This document shows, piece after piece, positions 6,594 to 30,646 of a stretch of 64,000 bases of DNA. The translations under genes were made by a program, and so were the position numbers. Each line of letters starts with the position of its first letter. Position 1 is the stretch's first letter. Source of the stretch: Candidatus Korarchaeum sp. (GTDB taxonomy: Archaea; Korarchaeota; Korarchaeia; Korarchaeales; Korarchaeaceae); the NCBI GenBank assembly GCA_020833055.1, contig JAJHQZ010000001.1:186001-250000 (forward strand), read 5' to 3'. The notes beneath the pieces are model-generated. The model was not told where the DNA came from. It did no database searches and saw only the letters and a list, made by a program, of their open reading frames with translations.

Positions 6594-6917
6594 ATGGTCG
6601 CGTTCGAGGAGAGAGTTAGAGATCCTATCACCGGGCTTCCAATCGAGCTGTTCGCCTGGGAGGAAGTTGAGAAGGAACTCAGACCAGTTAAGATAAGATA
6701 TGAGAAGAGGAAGGGGAAGGACGTCACGATAATAGAGAACTTACCGTTCTCAGACGATAATATATGGAACTTCCTCAAGGAAATAAAGAGGATTCTAGCA
6801 TGCGGAGGGACCTATAAGGACGGATATATCCTTCTTCAAGGGGACCATAGACATAAGGTCGCTAGATTACTCACGGAGAAGTGGGGTATATCGAGTGACC
6901 AGATAGAAGTGGAGTGA
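6594..6917 (+). CDS. Translation initiation factor aIF1 (SUI1 family)
   Basis: aIF1 binds the 30S P-site region and controls start-codon selection. The SUI1 core is clear: IRYEKRKGKDVTIIENLP (first strands and basic loop), then LKEIKRILACGGTYKDGYILLQGDHR with the CGG-x-x-K-x-x-x-I-x-L-Q-G-D/H motif, and a final helix HKVARLLTEKWGI. The N-terminal extension (DPITGLPIELFAWEEVEKE) is of the archaeal type. The gene is monocistronic, with a TATA box about 26 bases before the ATG, so a leaderless mRNA is likely. Confidence 0.93.
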   Translation: MVAFEERVRDPITGLPIELFAWEEVEKELRPVKIRYEKRKGKDVTIIENLPFSDDNIWNFLKEIKRILACGGTYKDGYILLQGDHRHKVARLLTEKWGISSDQIEVE

Positions 6918-25877: not shown

Positions 25878-27983
25878 ATGGGCTTAGATGAGCTCTTAAG
25901 TAGGATAGGTGTTAAGGAACTTTACCCAACTCAGAAGGAGGTCCTGAGCAGGGGGTTAGTGAGCGAGGGAAATTTCGTGCTAGCAGCTCCTACTGCTTCA
26001 GGTAAGACTTTAGCAGCTGAGATAGTGATGAATGAAGAGCTAGAGAAGGGAGGGAAGGTAGTCTACTTAGTACCATTGAGATCTCTCGCATACGAGAAAT
26101 ATGAGGAGTTCTCTAAGGTCTTCGATAAGTGGAGCGTGAGAGTATCGATCGGTGATTACGATTCCTCAGATGAGCCCTTGGGGAAGCATGACATCATAGT
26201 GATGACGTACGAGAAATTCGACTCTCTCCAGAGGCACAGAAGCTCTTGGTTAGATAGTATAAGCTTACTAGTCTTAGATGAAGTCCATTACGTTGGCGAT
26301 CCTAACAGGGGACCTACGCTCGAGATGGCCGTATCTAAATTCATGCATGAGAACGATCGATCTAGGAGGATAGCTTTGAGCGCTACTATAACTAACTTAG
26401 AGGAGATAGCTAATTGGTTGCGAGCTGTCCCGATAAGAGTGGATTGGAGACCGGTCCCCCTCAGAGTAGGTATGTACGCTGGGGGGAAGCTCATATATCC
26501 AGATGGTAGCTCCGAGAGGCTGGAGGGGGAGGGGATAATCCCATTATTGAGGAGGTGCTTAACTGACGGAGGCCAGGCTATAGTATTCTACAATAAGAGG
26601 AGCGATGCTGTATCTTGGGCTGAGAAGCTAGCTTCTCACTTCAATATGAGACTGAATGAAGACCCCCTCGAGGAAGTCAATTTATCCTCTTACGGATCCT
26701 CTAAACTGATCGAGAAACTCTCTAGTGTGATGAGGAGGGGGGTCGCTTTCCATCACGCTGGTCTCCCATTCGAGTTGAGGAGAGCTGTAGAGAGGGCCTT
26801 CAGAAGAGGATCCGTTAAGATACTGACAGCCACCCCTACGCTCGCAGCTGGAGTGAACTTACCAGCTAGAACAGTCATAGTTAGCTCCTATATGAGGTAT
26901 AACTCTAAGTTAGGTAGGATGACTCCCATCTCGATCATGGAATTCTGGCAGATGGCTGGGAGGGCTGGGAGGCCGGGTTACGATTCCCATGGGGAAGCTT
27001 ACATAATAGCTAAGCAGAGTGAAGCTAAGAGGATATTCGAGAATTACATAAGCTCAGAGCCCGAGCCTATCTCATCTAACTTACACGATACATCCTTACT
27101 TAAGAACCACTTGCTCGCTTTAGTAGCGAGTTCAGGTCCCATATCCCCAGGGGAGATCCTAGAGATATTCAAGAAGACATTATTGTACATTCAGGGAGGG
27201 GATAAGTTCTTAAGGAGGTCTATACCGTTCCTCCTAGAGTCCCTCAAGGAAGCTGGGTTCCTCCAAGACATAGGAGGCTTATATAGAGCGACATCCCTCG
27301 GGAAGAGGGTCTCTGAGTTGTATATAGATACATCATCAGCTCAGATGATGATAGAAGCCCTAGATGAGTTAATTAAGAGGTATAGGAGGATGGAGGATCT
27401 TGAGCTTCCCGTCCTCCACCTCCTCTGCATGTTACCAGATATGCCGAAGGTCTACGGTAGGGGGAGGACTGAGGCACTCATTGAAGCTTTTGAAGAACTA
27501 GATCCACTGATTCCAATAGAGGAATCTCCTATCTCATCTCACAGTGAACTCCTACAGGTGATTAGGGGCGCTCTATCATTGAAGATGTGGATCTCAGGCC
27601 AGAGCGATGGTGAGATAGAGGAGAAGCTCGGGATCGAACCGGGAGACTTGAGGAACTTGGCTGAGAATGGAGAGTGGCTCTGTTACTCTTTCTCGGAAAT
27701 ATCGAAACTTTTTGGTGAGAAAGAGATTTCAGAGTGGCTCAGAGTACTCTCAATGAGGATAAGATATGGAGTACCCGAGGAACTATTATCTCTAGTGATA
27801 CTCAAGGGGGTGGGCAGGGTGAGAGCTAAGCTACTCTATGAAGCTGGTTACAGGACCGTTAGGGATATAGCTGAAGCTGAGCCAGAGCAATTGGAGAGGA
27901 TAGTCGGTATAGGGAAGCAACTCTCTAAGGAGCTAGTGGAGCAGGCGAGGTCGTTGGTTTATGTGGGTCCATCCGATAGATAG
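25878..27983 (+). CDS. hel308: Ski2-like DNA helicase Hel308
   Basis: A superfamily 2 helicase that acts at stalled replication forks. Motif Q (LYPTQKEVL), motif I APTASGKT at 37-44, motif II DEVH at 134-137, motif III LSATITN, and motif VI QMAGRAGRPGYD near 355 are all present. A ratchet-type domain and a C-terminal helix-hairpin-helix (LKGVGRVRAKLLYEAG and IVGIGKQLSKELV) follow. The length of 701 matches the family. It lies 9 bp after mcm and overlaps purB by 23 bp, so replication and repair genes share the operon. Confidence 0.94.
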   Translation: MGLDELLSRIGVKELYPTQKEVLSRGLVSEGNFVLAAPTASGKTLAAEIVMNEELEKGGKVVYLVPLRSLAYEKYEEFSKVFDKWSVRVSIGDYDSSDEPLGKHDIIVMTYEKFDSLQRHRSSWLDSISLLVLDEVHYVGDPNRGPTLEMAVSKFMHENDRSRRIALSATITNLEEIANWLRAVPIRVDWRPVPLRVGMYAGGKLIYPDGSSERLEGEGIIPLLRRCLTDGGQAIVFYNKRSDAVSWAEKLASHFNMRLNEDPLEEVNLSSYGSSKLIEKLSSVMRRGVAFHHAGLPFELRRAVERAFRRGSVKILTATPTLAAGVNLPARTVIVSSYMRYNSKLGRMTPISIMEFWQMAGRAGRPGYDSHGEAYIIAKQSEAKRIFENYISSEPEPISSNLHDTSLLKNHLLALVASSGPISPGEILEIFKKTLLYIQGGDKFLRRSIPFLLESLKEAGFLQDIGGLYRATSLGKRVSELYIDTSSAQMMIEALDELIKRYRRMEDLELPVLHLLCMLPDMPKVYGRGRTEALIEAFEELDPLIPIEESPISSHSELLQVIRGALSLKMWISGQSDGEIEEKLGIEPGDLRNLAENGEWLCYSFSEISKLFGEKEISEWLRVLSMRIRYGVPEELLSLVILKGVGRVRAKLLYEAGYRTVRDIAEAEPEQLERIVGIGKQLSKELVEQARSLVYVGPSDR

Positions 27984-29331
27984 TAGGTATGGATCCGAGC
28001 GTATGAGAGCTATATTCAGGCAGGAGAATAGGATAAAGCTCATGGCATCAGTTGAAGTTCTCTATGCTAAGGCTTTAGCTGAGAGAGGGTTGATCCCGAA
28101 AGAAGCAGCTGAAGCTATTGAGAGAGCTGCCGAGGGAGTCACGCCCGAGGATGTTAAGTATGAGGAATCCCTAGTGAAGCATGAAACTATGGCCCTCGTG
28201 AGAGCTATCTCTAAGAGAGCTGGGGGTTATGGTGAATATCTCCATCTAGGTCTCACATCTAACGATGTGTTAGATACTGTGATGGGAGTCCAGATAAAGC
28301 AAGCAGGCTCTATAATACTGAGTAGCGCCGCTTCGCTCCTGGAGAAGATAGTTAAGAGAGGAGAGGAGTCGTTGGATATCGTGTGCTTGGGTAGGACTCA
28401 TGGGGTAGTAGCAGACCCCATCCCCCTCTCAATGAAGTTCGCTCTCTGGTCTTATTACATCAGGAGAGCTATCATCAGGTTCATGAACTCCCTGAATGAA
28501 GCATCAGTCGGCAAACTCAGGGGAGCTGTAGGTACTGCTGCGGCCTCAATCGAGTTAGGGATCGAGGACCCTCTTGAAGTGGAGAGTGAAGTGCTCAGAG
28601 CTTTAGGACTTAGTCCCCCTGAGATAACTACGCAGATAGTCCCTAGGGATAGGCTAGCTAATCTAATCCTCTCGATGTCCCTCTTCTCATCAGTGCTGGA
28701 TACCATAGCTAATGAGATAAGGAACTTACATAGGACTGAGATAAGCGAAATCAGAGAGCACTTCGAGGAGAGGCAAGTAGGTTCGAGCACTATGCCCCAT
28801 AAGATGAACCCTATTAACAGTGAGAAGGTCTGCGGATTAGCTAGATTGATGAGGTCATTAGCTATAGCGGCTCTAGAGAACGTAGTACTGGAGCACGAGA
28901 GGGATCTTACTAATAGCTCAGTCGAGAGAATAATCCTACCGGAAGCCTTCCTGATCTTAGAAGAACAGATAAACACTCTTTCTAATGTCATAGAGAACCT
29001 CGAGATAGATAAGATCAGGATAAAGGAGAACATCGAGAAATATGGTGATATAGCTTTGAGTGAGAGGTTAATGATCTGGTTAGTTAAGAAGGGATTGGGA
29101 AGACAAGAAGCGCATGAGATCGTGAGGAGGATATCCTTAAGATCCTATAGGAGCGGTAGAAGGCTCATAGATGAAGTATTGGCTGATGAGGAGATCTCCA
29201 AGATATTGAAACCTGAGGAGATTGAGGTCATATTCCGACCCCAGAGTTACATCGGGTTGGGGAGGGAGCTCTCTATTAAAGAGTTCAGAGCGGCGAGAGA
29301 GTTCCTGAAGGAGGTGCTTCTAAACGGGTGA
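27961..29331 (+). CDS. purB: Adenylosuccinate lyase
   Basis: It catalyses two fumarate-releasing steps of purine synthesis (SAICAR to AICAR, adenylosuccinate to AMP). Signature features are HPIDSRYGSERM at the start, KHETMALVRAI near 76, HLGLTSNDVLDT near 98-109, and the fumarase-superfamily loop GSSTMPHKMNPI near 277-288. At 456 residues it is normal. It begins inside the 3' end of hel308, and its own stop region overlaps the proposed start of the next gene. Confidence 0.96.
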   Translation: MWVHPIDSRYGSERMRAIFRQENRIKLMASVEVLYAKALAERGLIPKEAAEAIERAAEGVTPEDVKYEESLVKHETMALVRAISKRAGGYGEYLHLGLTSNDVLDTVMGVQIKQAGSIILSSAASLLEKIVKRGEESLDIVCLGRTHGVVADPIPLSMKFALWSYYIRRAIIRFMNSLNEASVGKLRGAVGTAAASIELGIEDPLEVESEVLRALGLSPPEITTQIVPRDRLANLILSMSLFSSVLDTIANEIRNLHRTEISEIREHFEERQVGSSTMPHKMNPINSEKVCGLARLMRSLAIAALENVVLEHERDLTNSSVERIILPEAFLILEEQINTLSNVIENLEIDKIRIKENIEKYGDIALSERLMIWLVKKGLGRQEAHEIVRRISLRSYRSGRRLIDEVLADEEISKILKPEEIEVIFRPQSYIGLGRELSIKEFRAAREFLKEVLLNG

Positions 29332-30646
29332 AATCAGACTCAGGTTCCTGGGAGGAGCTAGATCCATCGGTAGATCGAGTATAGAGATCATTTGCAAGAA
29401 CCCCATCATATTGGACTCTGGAGTGGATGTGGGAACTAGTTCGAGGCTCCTCCCACTAGAGCCCAAGTCCGATCCTGAAGCTCTGATCCTAACTCACGCT
29501 CATTTAGACCATTACGGAGCTAGTCCCTTGATACTGGGGAGATGGAGTTGCGATACTTATGTGACGCCTCCTACAGTCGATGTAGGGGAGATCTTGCTGA
29601 AGGACTTCATCAGCCTCTCCTCAGAATACGTTGAGAGGCCTTATTCCACTCAGGATATCCAGCTCATTAGGAGGAGGGAGAGGTCGATCAGGCTCAATGA
29701 TTACATAGCTCTGGACGGATGGGAGCTCAGGACTTTCAACGCGGGTCACGTCCTAGGGTCTGTAATGATACATCTCACAGCTAAAGATGGTCCTACTATC
29801 CTTTACACTGGAGATATAAACACAGCGGGGACCAGAACCCTTAGAGGGGCTGAGATCGAGCTCCCTAAAGTCGATTACTTGATAATCGAGGGGACTTATG
29901 GTGGGGATGATGATATACATCCCTCCAGGAAGAAAGTCGAGAGGCAGTTCATAGAGGATATAAGGGAAGTTATAGCGAGAGGAGGTGTCACTATAATACC
30001 TACTTTCGCTCTAGGTAGAGCTCAAGAAGTCCTCTTAACTTTGATAAGTCACATAGAATCTGGTGTCCTTCAGGAAGTCCCGATATTCGTTGATGGTATG
30101 ATAAGGGAGATCTCGAAGTACTACAATGCTTACTGGTCATGGCTGAGGCCTGAGCTCCAGAGGATGATAAGGGAGAGCAAGAAGGAGCTCTTCGATCATA
30201 GAGCTATAGAGGAAGTGAGGAATAGGGAGGAACTCCTAGAGATAAGCGAGCCATTCATAATCGTCACGACATCCGGTATGCTTCAGGGAGGACCTGTACT
30301 CACATACTTGAAGCACTTCGGAACTAAGAGGGGAAATCTGATATATCTGACAGGTTATCAAGTGAAGGGAACTAGGGGGAGGATGCTCTTAGATGGTATC
30401 AGGCAGATCCCGATGCCGGATGGTGTTATAGAAGTGAAGTGCGACGTCAAGTTCGCTGATTTTTCAGCCCATGCCGATCAACCCAATCTGATAAACTTCA
30501 TCATGAAAGTAGCGAGTAAGGGGCTCAAAGAAGTGATACTAGTTCATGGTGAGTTCGATAAATTAGTCCAGTTGAGGAGGAAATTGGAAGCTAGAGGGAT
30601 AAGGACTTATATACCTTATGAAGGTGAGATCATAGAGATAAAGTGA
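29324..30646 (+). CDS. Beta-CASP metallo-beta-lactamase ribonuclease (aCPSF2-like), non-canonical start
   Basis: A predicted RNA endo/exonuclease of the archaeal CPSF family. MBL motifs are LTHAHLDHYGA, NAGHVLGS and YTGDIN; beta-CASP motifs include IIEGTYGG and DFSAHADQPN, and VHGEFDKL follows. The nearest standard start is TTG 29411, but the frame is open upstream to a TAA at 29321-29323 and encodes the family N-terminus (IRLRFLGGARSIGRSSIEI). Only ACG 29324, GGT, GAA and ATC 29333 lie between. An AGGAGGTG at 29309-29316 is ideally spaced for ACG 29324; ATC 29333 sits where Met is expected by alignment. I give the ACG start as a hypothesis. Confidence 0.85.
   Translation, partial: TGEIRLRFLGGARSIGRSSIEIICKNPIILDSGVDVGTSSRLLPLEPKSDPEALILTHAHLDHYGASPLILGRWSCDTYVTPPTVDVGEILLKDFISLSSEYVERPYSTQDIQLIRRRERSIRLNDYIALDGWELRTFNAGHVLGSVMIHLTAKDGPTILYTGDINTAGTRTLRGAEIELPKVDYLIIEGTYGGDDDIHPSRKKVERQFIEDIREVIARGGVTIIPTFALGRAQEVLLTLISHIESGVLQEVPIFVDGMIREISKYYNAYWSWLRPELQRMIRESKKELFDHRAIEEVRNREELLEISEPFIIVTTSGMLQGGPVLTYLKHFGTKRGNLIYLTGYQVKGTRGRMLLDGIRQIPMPDGVIEVKCDVKFADFSAHADQPNLINFIMKVASKGLKEVILVHGEFDKLVQLRRKLEARGIRTYIPYEGEIIEIK

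Follow-up and report, generated by a model that had tools for sequence, protein, structure and literature searches.

Where does translation of a gene begin when its reading frame holds no standard start codon ahead of the conserved part of the protein? The question is raised by a beta-CASP nuclease gene of Candidatus Korarchaeum sp. (GCA_020833055.1), found in a stretch of 64,000 nucleotides (the window; contig 1, JAJHQZ010000001.1, positions 186001-250000), within an assembly of 1.39 Mb and 25 contigs referred to here as G000. The nuclease frame extends from 29324 to 30646 of the window on the forward strand (440 codons) and opens right after an in-frame TAA (29321-29323) with ACG GGT GAA ATC, followed by AGA CTC AGG TTC CTG GGA GGA. 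Its earliest in-frame ATG, GTG or TTG is the TTG at 29411-29413, corresponding to residue 30 and lying within the conserved fold. Upstream, AGGAGGTG at 29309-29316 ends 7 bases before the ACG at 29324-29326 and includes the Shine-Dalgarno (SD) element GGAGGTG (29310-29316, forward strand). A preliminary description of this DNA had reported both the lack of a standard start codon between the TAA and the TTG and an SD-like stretch 7 bases ahead of the ACG, and both observations hold. The ACG at 29324 is likely the start codon of the nuclease, as judged from the comparison of related genomes presented below.

PF00753, PF10996 and PF07521 (metallo-beta-lactamase, Beta-Casp and RMMBL) match the 440-residue product above their cut-offs, and H58-A-H60-L-D62-H63, H142, D164, H383 and H408 are invariant in six sequences; we take these to be the HAHLDH motif, the Asp of motif 4 and the His residues of the C-terminal motifs. 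The best matches among solved structures are aCPSF1/FttA proteins, KH-bearing archaeal beta-CASP nucleases with the same catalytic domains (PDB 3af5, 2ycb, 2xr1, 9bct). However, the protein studied here has no KH region, falls below the cut-off of the aCPSF1 family TIGR03675 (341 bits against 580, profile positions 174-629 only) and is 36% identical to the 645-residue copy encoded in the same genome; another open frame of G000, of 431 residues, is 33% identical to it. It may be compared with aCPSF1b, a relative of aCPSF1 that lacks KH, such as MMP1381 of M. maripaludis. The name aCPSF1b and the non-essential character of this protein are given in PMC9430280. Regarding the N-terminus, alignments of the nuclease to solved beta-CASP structures begin at residue 3-5, R7, F8, L9, G10, G16, R17, S18, S19 and E21 are invariant in the six sequences, and a predicted structure, used lightly given its poor overall quality (mean pLDDT 58.6), places strands at 4-8 and 17-23. 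No ATG, GTG or TTG precedes this conserved N-terminus. By alignment, then, the residues encoded before TTG 29411 are part of the protein, as the preliminary description had proposed for the first strands of the metallo-beta-lactamase fold.

We compared the start site in 16 genomes of the genus (G000 and 15 further ones; the entries L003-L007 hold the same contigs as G005, G009, G015, G001 and G006 and were counted once). ACG stands at the aligned site in 13 of them, ATG in two (G014 and G003), and G002 differs, with a GTG at -3 (bases) in place of the ACG arrangement; the ACG genomes carry the same SD element upstream. In the protein tree, the two ATG sequences form one clade nested among the ACG ones, which is most simply explained by a single replacement of ACG by ATG. 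The site lies in the 3' end of purB (adenylosuccinate lyase, 27961-29331, forward strand; TIGR00928 above cut-off), which would also provide the ribosome-binding site for the nuclease; the two frames share 8 nt, with the purB stop TGA at 29329-29331. This overlap is found in 14 of the 16 genomes (no purB frame was located in G006, and the overlap of G002 is 5 nt). Retention of purB triplets read in the +1 frame gives a background for these figures: on average, 0.29 of the other genomes keep a G000 triplet (457 triplets), or 0.27 within the last 30 codons. Both ACG 29324, kept by 11 of 14 genomes, and the SD triplets, kept by 12, 12 and 11 of 14, stand far above this mean. This test was done without G006, whose ACG rests on the site alignment only. 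The purB residue over the ACG varies (Asn, His, Tyr) while the ACG stays, and the site falls beyond the conserved C-terminal domain of the lyase (ADSL_C, which reaches residue 432 of 456). Outside the genus, G018, which belongs to another genus of the same family, has a nuclease without a standard start near its N-terminus that seems to begin at a CTG behind GGAGG.

The distance from SD to start can be read against the genes of the genus with ordinary starts. For 219 genes of G000 contig 1 the start is shared with G012 (149 ATG, 36 GTG and 34 TTG); 77 of these have an SD of at least 5 bases, and the commonest distance from GGAGG to the start is 7 nt. The nuclease ACG, with an SD of 7 bases and 9 nt from GGAGG, thus has a usable spacing.

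Among the other ways to account for this start region, the one that survives best, although unlikely, is a start at ATC 29333 or TTG 29411, with the ACG kept by chance or for the sake of purB. ATC is a near-cognate codon that, like ATA, may serve in the kae1 genes of this genus (see below), and TTG is a standard start codon. However, the codon at +3 that is ATC 29333 in G000 appears in the orthologues as ATC, ATA, CTG, CTA, ATT, GTA, ATG or GTG, thus varying among Ile, Leu, Val and Met codons; since it is not conserved, it is not supported as the start, which leaves the ACG as the likely one. The TTG is absent from its position in most orthologues and lies behind the conserved residues 7-21, so that a start there would drop the first strands of the fold. 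The preliminary description had left the choice between ACG and ATC undecided, and conservation gives good support to the first and none to the second.

If the ACG is the start, is the nuclease alone in the genus? A survey was made with G000 contig 1 against 400 kb each from G010 and G012. G012 matched 256 primary genes of G000, and 33 of them were flagged because the alignment reached further upstream than the first standard start. Inspection by eye kept five, encoding the nuclease, Kae1, an HD-domain protein and members of the UbiD and DUF5616 families, and removed the other 28, which were short extensions, RNA genes, overlaps in the opposite frame or cases of weak conservation. A separate comparison within the same survey added the gene of the 2-oxoacid:ferredoxin oxidoreductase gamma subunit, giving six genes in all. 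At the start column of this last gene, 11 of 14 genomes show CTG and the other three TTG; in G000 the gene lies outside the window (contig 1, 101845-102441, reverse strand), and its whole frame is free of ATG, GTG and TTG. Of the 16 genomes, 8 are without a standard start for Kae1 and have ATA, ATC or CTC near the site (AAG-ATA, AAG-ATC and GTC-ATC among the site codons). In G000 this universal gene is also outside the window (contig 1, 315695-316768, reverse strand) and shows no ATG, GTG or TTG from the upstream stop through the first 34 codons of the conserved protein. G000, G010 and G012 each have, just ahead of kae1, a very short ATG frame (about six codons) that follows a G-rich stretch and may encode a leader peptide or be due to chance. 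For the HD gene, a standard start is present in 13 of 15 genomes and CTA-ACG or CTG-ACG in the other two, with the ACG 7 nt from the SD. DUF5616 has ACG in all four pattern matches among the 16 genomes, a weaker result since the pattern itself contained ACG (three mismatches allowed); its ACG is 10 nt from a weak SD, and in G010 an in-frame TAG is found two codons before it. The UbiD start codon is CTG in G000, TTG in G010 and ATG in G012. Taken together, these alignments suggest that the near-cognate codons ACG, CTG and probably ATA or ATC are used and conserved in the genus.

Controls for this survey are modest. The N-terminus of Kae1 is sharply defined. Outside the genus, loci from 30 of 39 and 11 of 13 matching genomes were examined, two split genes being excluded; in 41 of 41 cases a standard start occurs within 12 codons, and in 39 exactly 4 codons before the GIE motif; the difference from the genus (Fisher, 8e-6) is overstated, since 23 of the 41 control loci belong to one genus. 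In G060 and G038, both genomes of one genus (loci L299 and L300), two separate matches make up Kae1, and a stop codon is noted between them or at their ends. The control pair G037/G059 gave 20 flagged genes among 74 shared ones and no convincing case, the pair being too close and the gene set too small. Within the survey itself, 37 of the 256 genes lack a start in common with G012 over the first 40 aligned codons, for various reasons, and an ab initio scan for SD plus a non-standard codon returned 72, 59 and 76 frames in three genomes, too noisy for counting. With six genes and these controls, the comparison suggests a genus-wide relaxation of start selection.

Post-transcriptional change of the C could also produce usable starts. 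By C-to-U editing, ACG would become AUG and CUG would become UUG in the transcript, so that the two best-conserved non-standard codons found here would both become standard, and sister genomes do carry ATG or TTG at these sites. We know of no archaeal mRNA editing of this C-to-U start kind, and the explanation requires an editing system. The precedent comes from plant chloroplasts, where, as described in an excerpt of PMC9845219, rpl2, psbL and ndhD have ACG start codons whose C is edited to U. The two situations are alike in showing ACG in the DNA where relatives have ATG; however, editing is not needed to explain the korarchaeal codons, and the Kae1 sites AAG-ATA, AAG-ATC and GTC-ATC would not be helped by it. 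We therefore consider editing, or any other change of the C, decidedly unlikely.

A sequencing or assembly error, raised as a possibility in the preliminary description, is very unlikely. In this case, the true sequence would hold a standard start, or one extra A after the GTG at 29328 (GTG AAA ATC ...). This GTG stands ahead of a short A run, one base out of frame, and would enter the nuclease frame only with one added base, and the window comes from an assembly of 25 contigs. But the same ACG in the same frame is present in 12 other genomes, one of them the single-contig G010 (1,590,757 bases), and an identical error in all of them is not credible; entry into the frame through the GTG was seen in none of these 12 genomes. 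The lack of a standard start codon ahead of the conserved fold of the nuclease is confirmed as real. Equally hard to credit is a PurB fusion made by +1 frameshifting at the purB stop: the nuclease frame is indeed +1 relative to purB and overlaps its stop, but an ordinary ATG occupies the nuclease start site in the sister clade, and the idea is rejected because there is no conserved shift site (GGG TGA, GAG TGA, or a TAA 6 nt further on).

In our opinion, it is probable that the nuclease starts at ACG 29324 and that this is an instance of relaxed start-codon selection in the genus, the cause of the relaxation being a separate matter. In the mechanism that we propose, the strong element GGAGGTG within the end of purB would position the 30S subunit, and initiator Met-tRNA would read the ACG with one mismatch at the middle base, placing Met as the first residue. 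Ribosomes terminating purB at TGA 29329 might assist initiation of the nuclease, and such a start could also affect its expression. An unusual initiator tRNA was considered and rejected: with a pattern of archaeal initiator tRNAs, a tRNA-Met(CAT) that looks ordinary was located in G000, G010 and G012, and a second G000 match to this pattern gave no tRNA gene.

A plausible cause of the relaxation would be an altered loop 1 of aIF1, a factor that helps to reject wrong start codons. The SUI1 domain of aIF1 is encoded in the window at 6681-6890 on the forward strand (PF01253 match, contig 1, 192681-192890). In an alignment of 36 sequences, a one-residue gap in loop 1 is present in all 13 genus members and also in G016 and G018, of the same family; the column is aromatic in 19 of the other 21 sequences and proline in two. 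The 13 sequences represent the genus apart from G007, G015 and G005, the last of which gave no match, and the placement of the gap in such a short loop is approximate. Excerpts of PMC6237735 and PMC8211752 describe aIF1 as favouring the rejection of non-canonical starts in Sulfolobus, and in the first of them Tyr32 of loop 1 of P. abyssi aIF1 is needed for the synergistic binding of aIF1 and mRNA to the 30S subunit. As read from the loop motif, the gap column would correspond to this Tyr32. The link between the gap and the starts is a correlation, and the full hypothesis is put forward tentatively, as possible though less than probable: that loss of the loop-1 residue coupling mRNA and factor on the 30S subunit allows near-cognate starts (ACG, CTG, ATA/ATC) across the genus in main and even universal genes such as kae1, with a eukaryote-like range of codons behind SD elements.

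Several observations speak against this interpretation at one or another of its levels. At the nuclease site, purB has three other ACG triplets in the +1 frame, which 10, 3 and 3 of 14 genomes keep; high retention by itself is therefore not unique to ACG 29324, one of the others being kept nearly as well, and some ACG orthologues have a standard codon nearby (in codons, ATG at +3 in G006, ATG at +4 in G012, GTG at +4 in G011, and TTG at -6 in G001 and G008). Among the other genes, the Kae1 and UbiD sites have no clear SD, and that of DUF5616 is weak. As for aIF1, its gap is common to the whole genus and thus gives no contrast within it; G002 is arranged otherwise despite the gap, and G016 has the gap, yet its nuclease starts with TTG.

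Known systems offer partial parallels. In E. coli, infC and pcnB begin with AUU: there too, a cellular gene has a conserved non-standard start that the initiator tRNA reads despite a single mismatch. Here, in contrast, the mismatch of ACG is at the middle base, CTG and ATA/ATC occur too, and the genes concerned are several, unrelated to each other and from a single archaeal genus. Eukaryotic near-cognate starts (CUG, ACG, AUA, AUC) are limited by eIF1; the range of one-mismatch codons is similar, and in both cases a factor of the SUI1 family is judged limiting. However, in the genus studied here these codons would be the sole starts of main genes, placed behind SD elements, and scanning is not implied. 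A literature search, with most subscription journals outside its coverage, returned no report of archaeal ACG starts or of non-standard starts in Korarchaeum, which is weak evidence of novelty.

If this interpretation is true, gene finders limited to ATG, GTG and TTG would shorten or miss genes in this lineage, kae1 among them. Furthermore, the genus would provide a natural test of aIF1 loop 1 in start-codon choice, with a simple natural deletion in the factor and a predicted outcome that is open to inspection in genome sequences. The role of this loop in choosing the start is a question common to archaea and eukaryotes.
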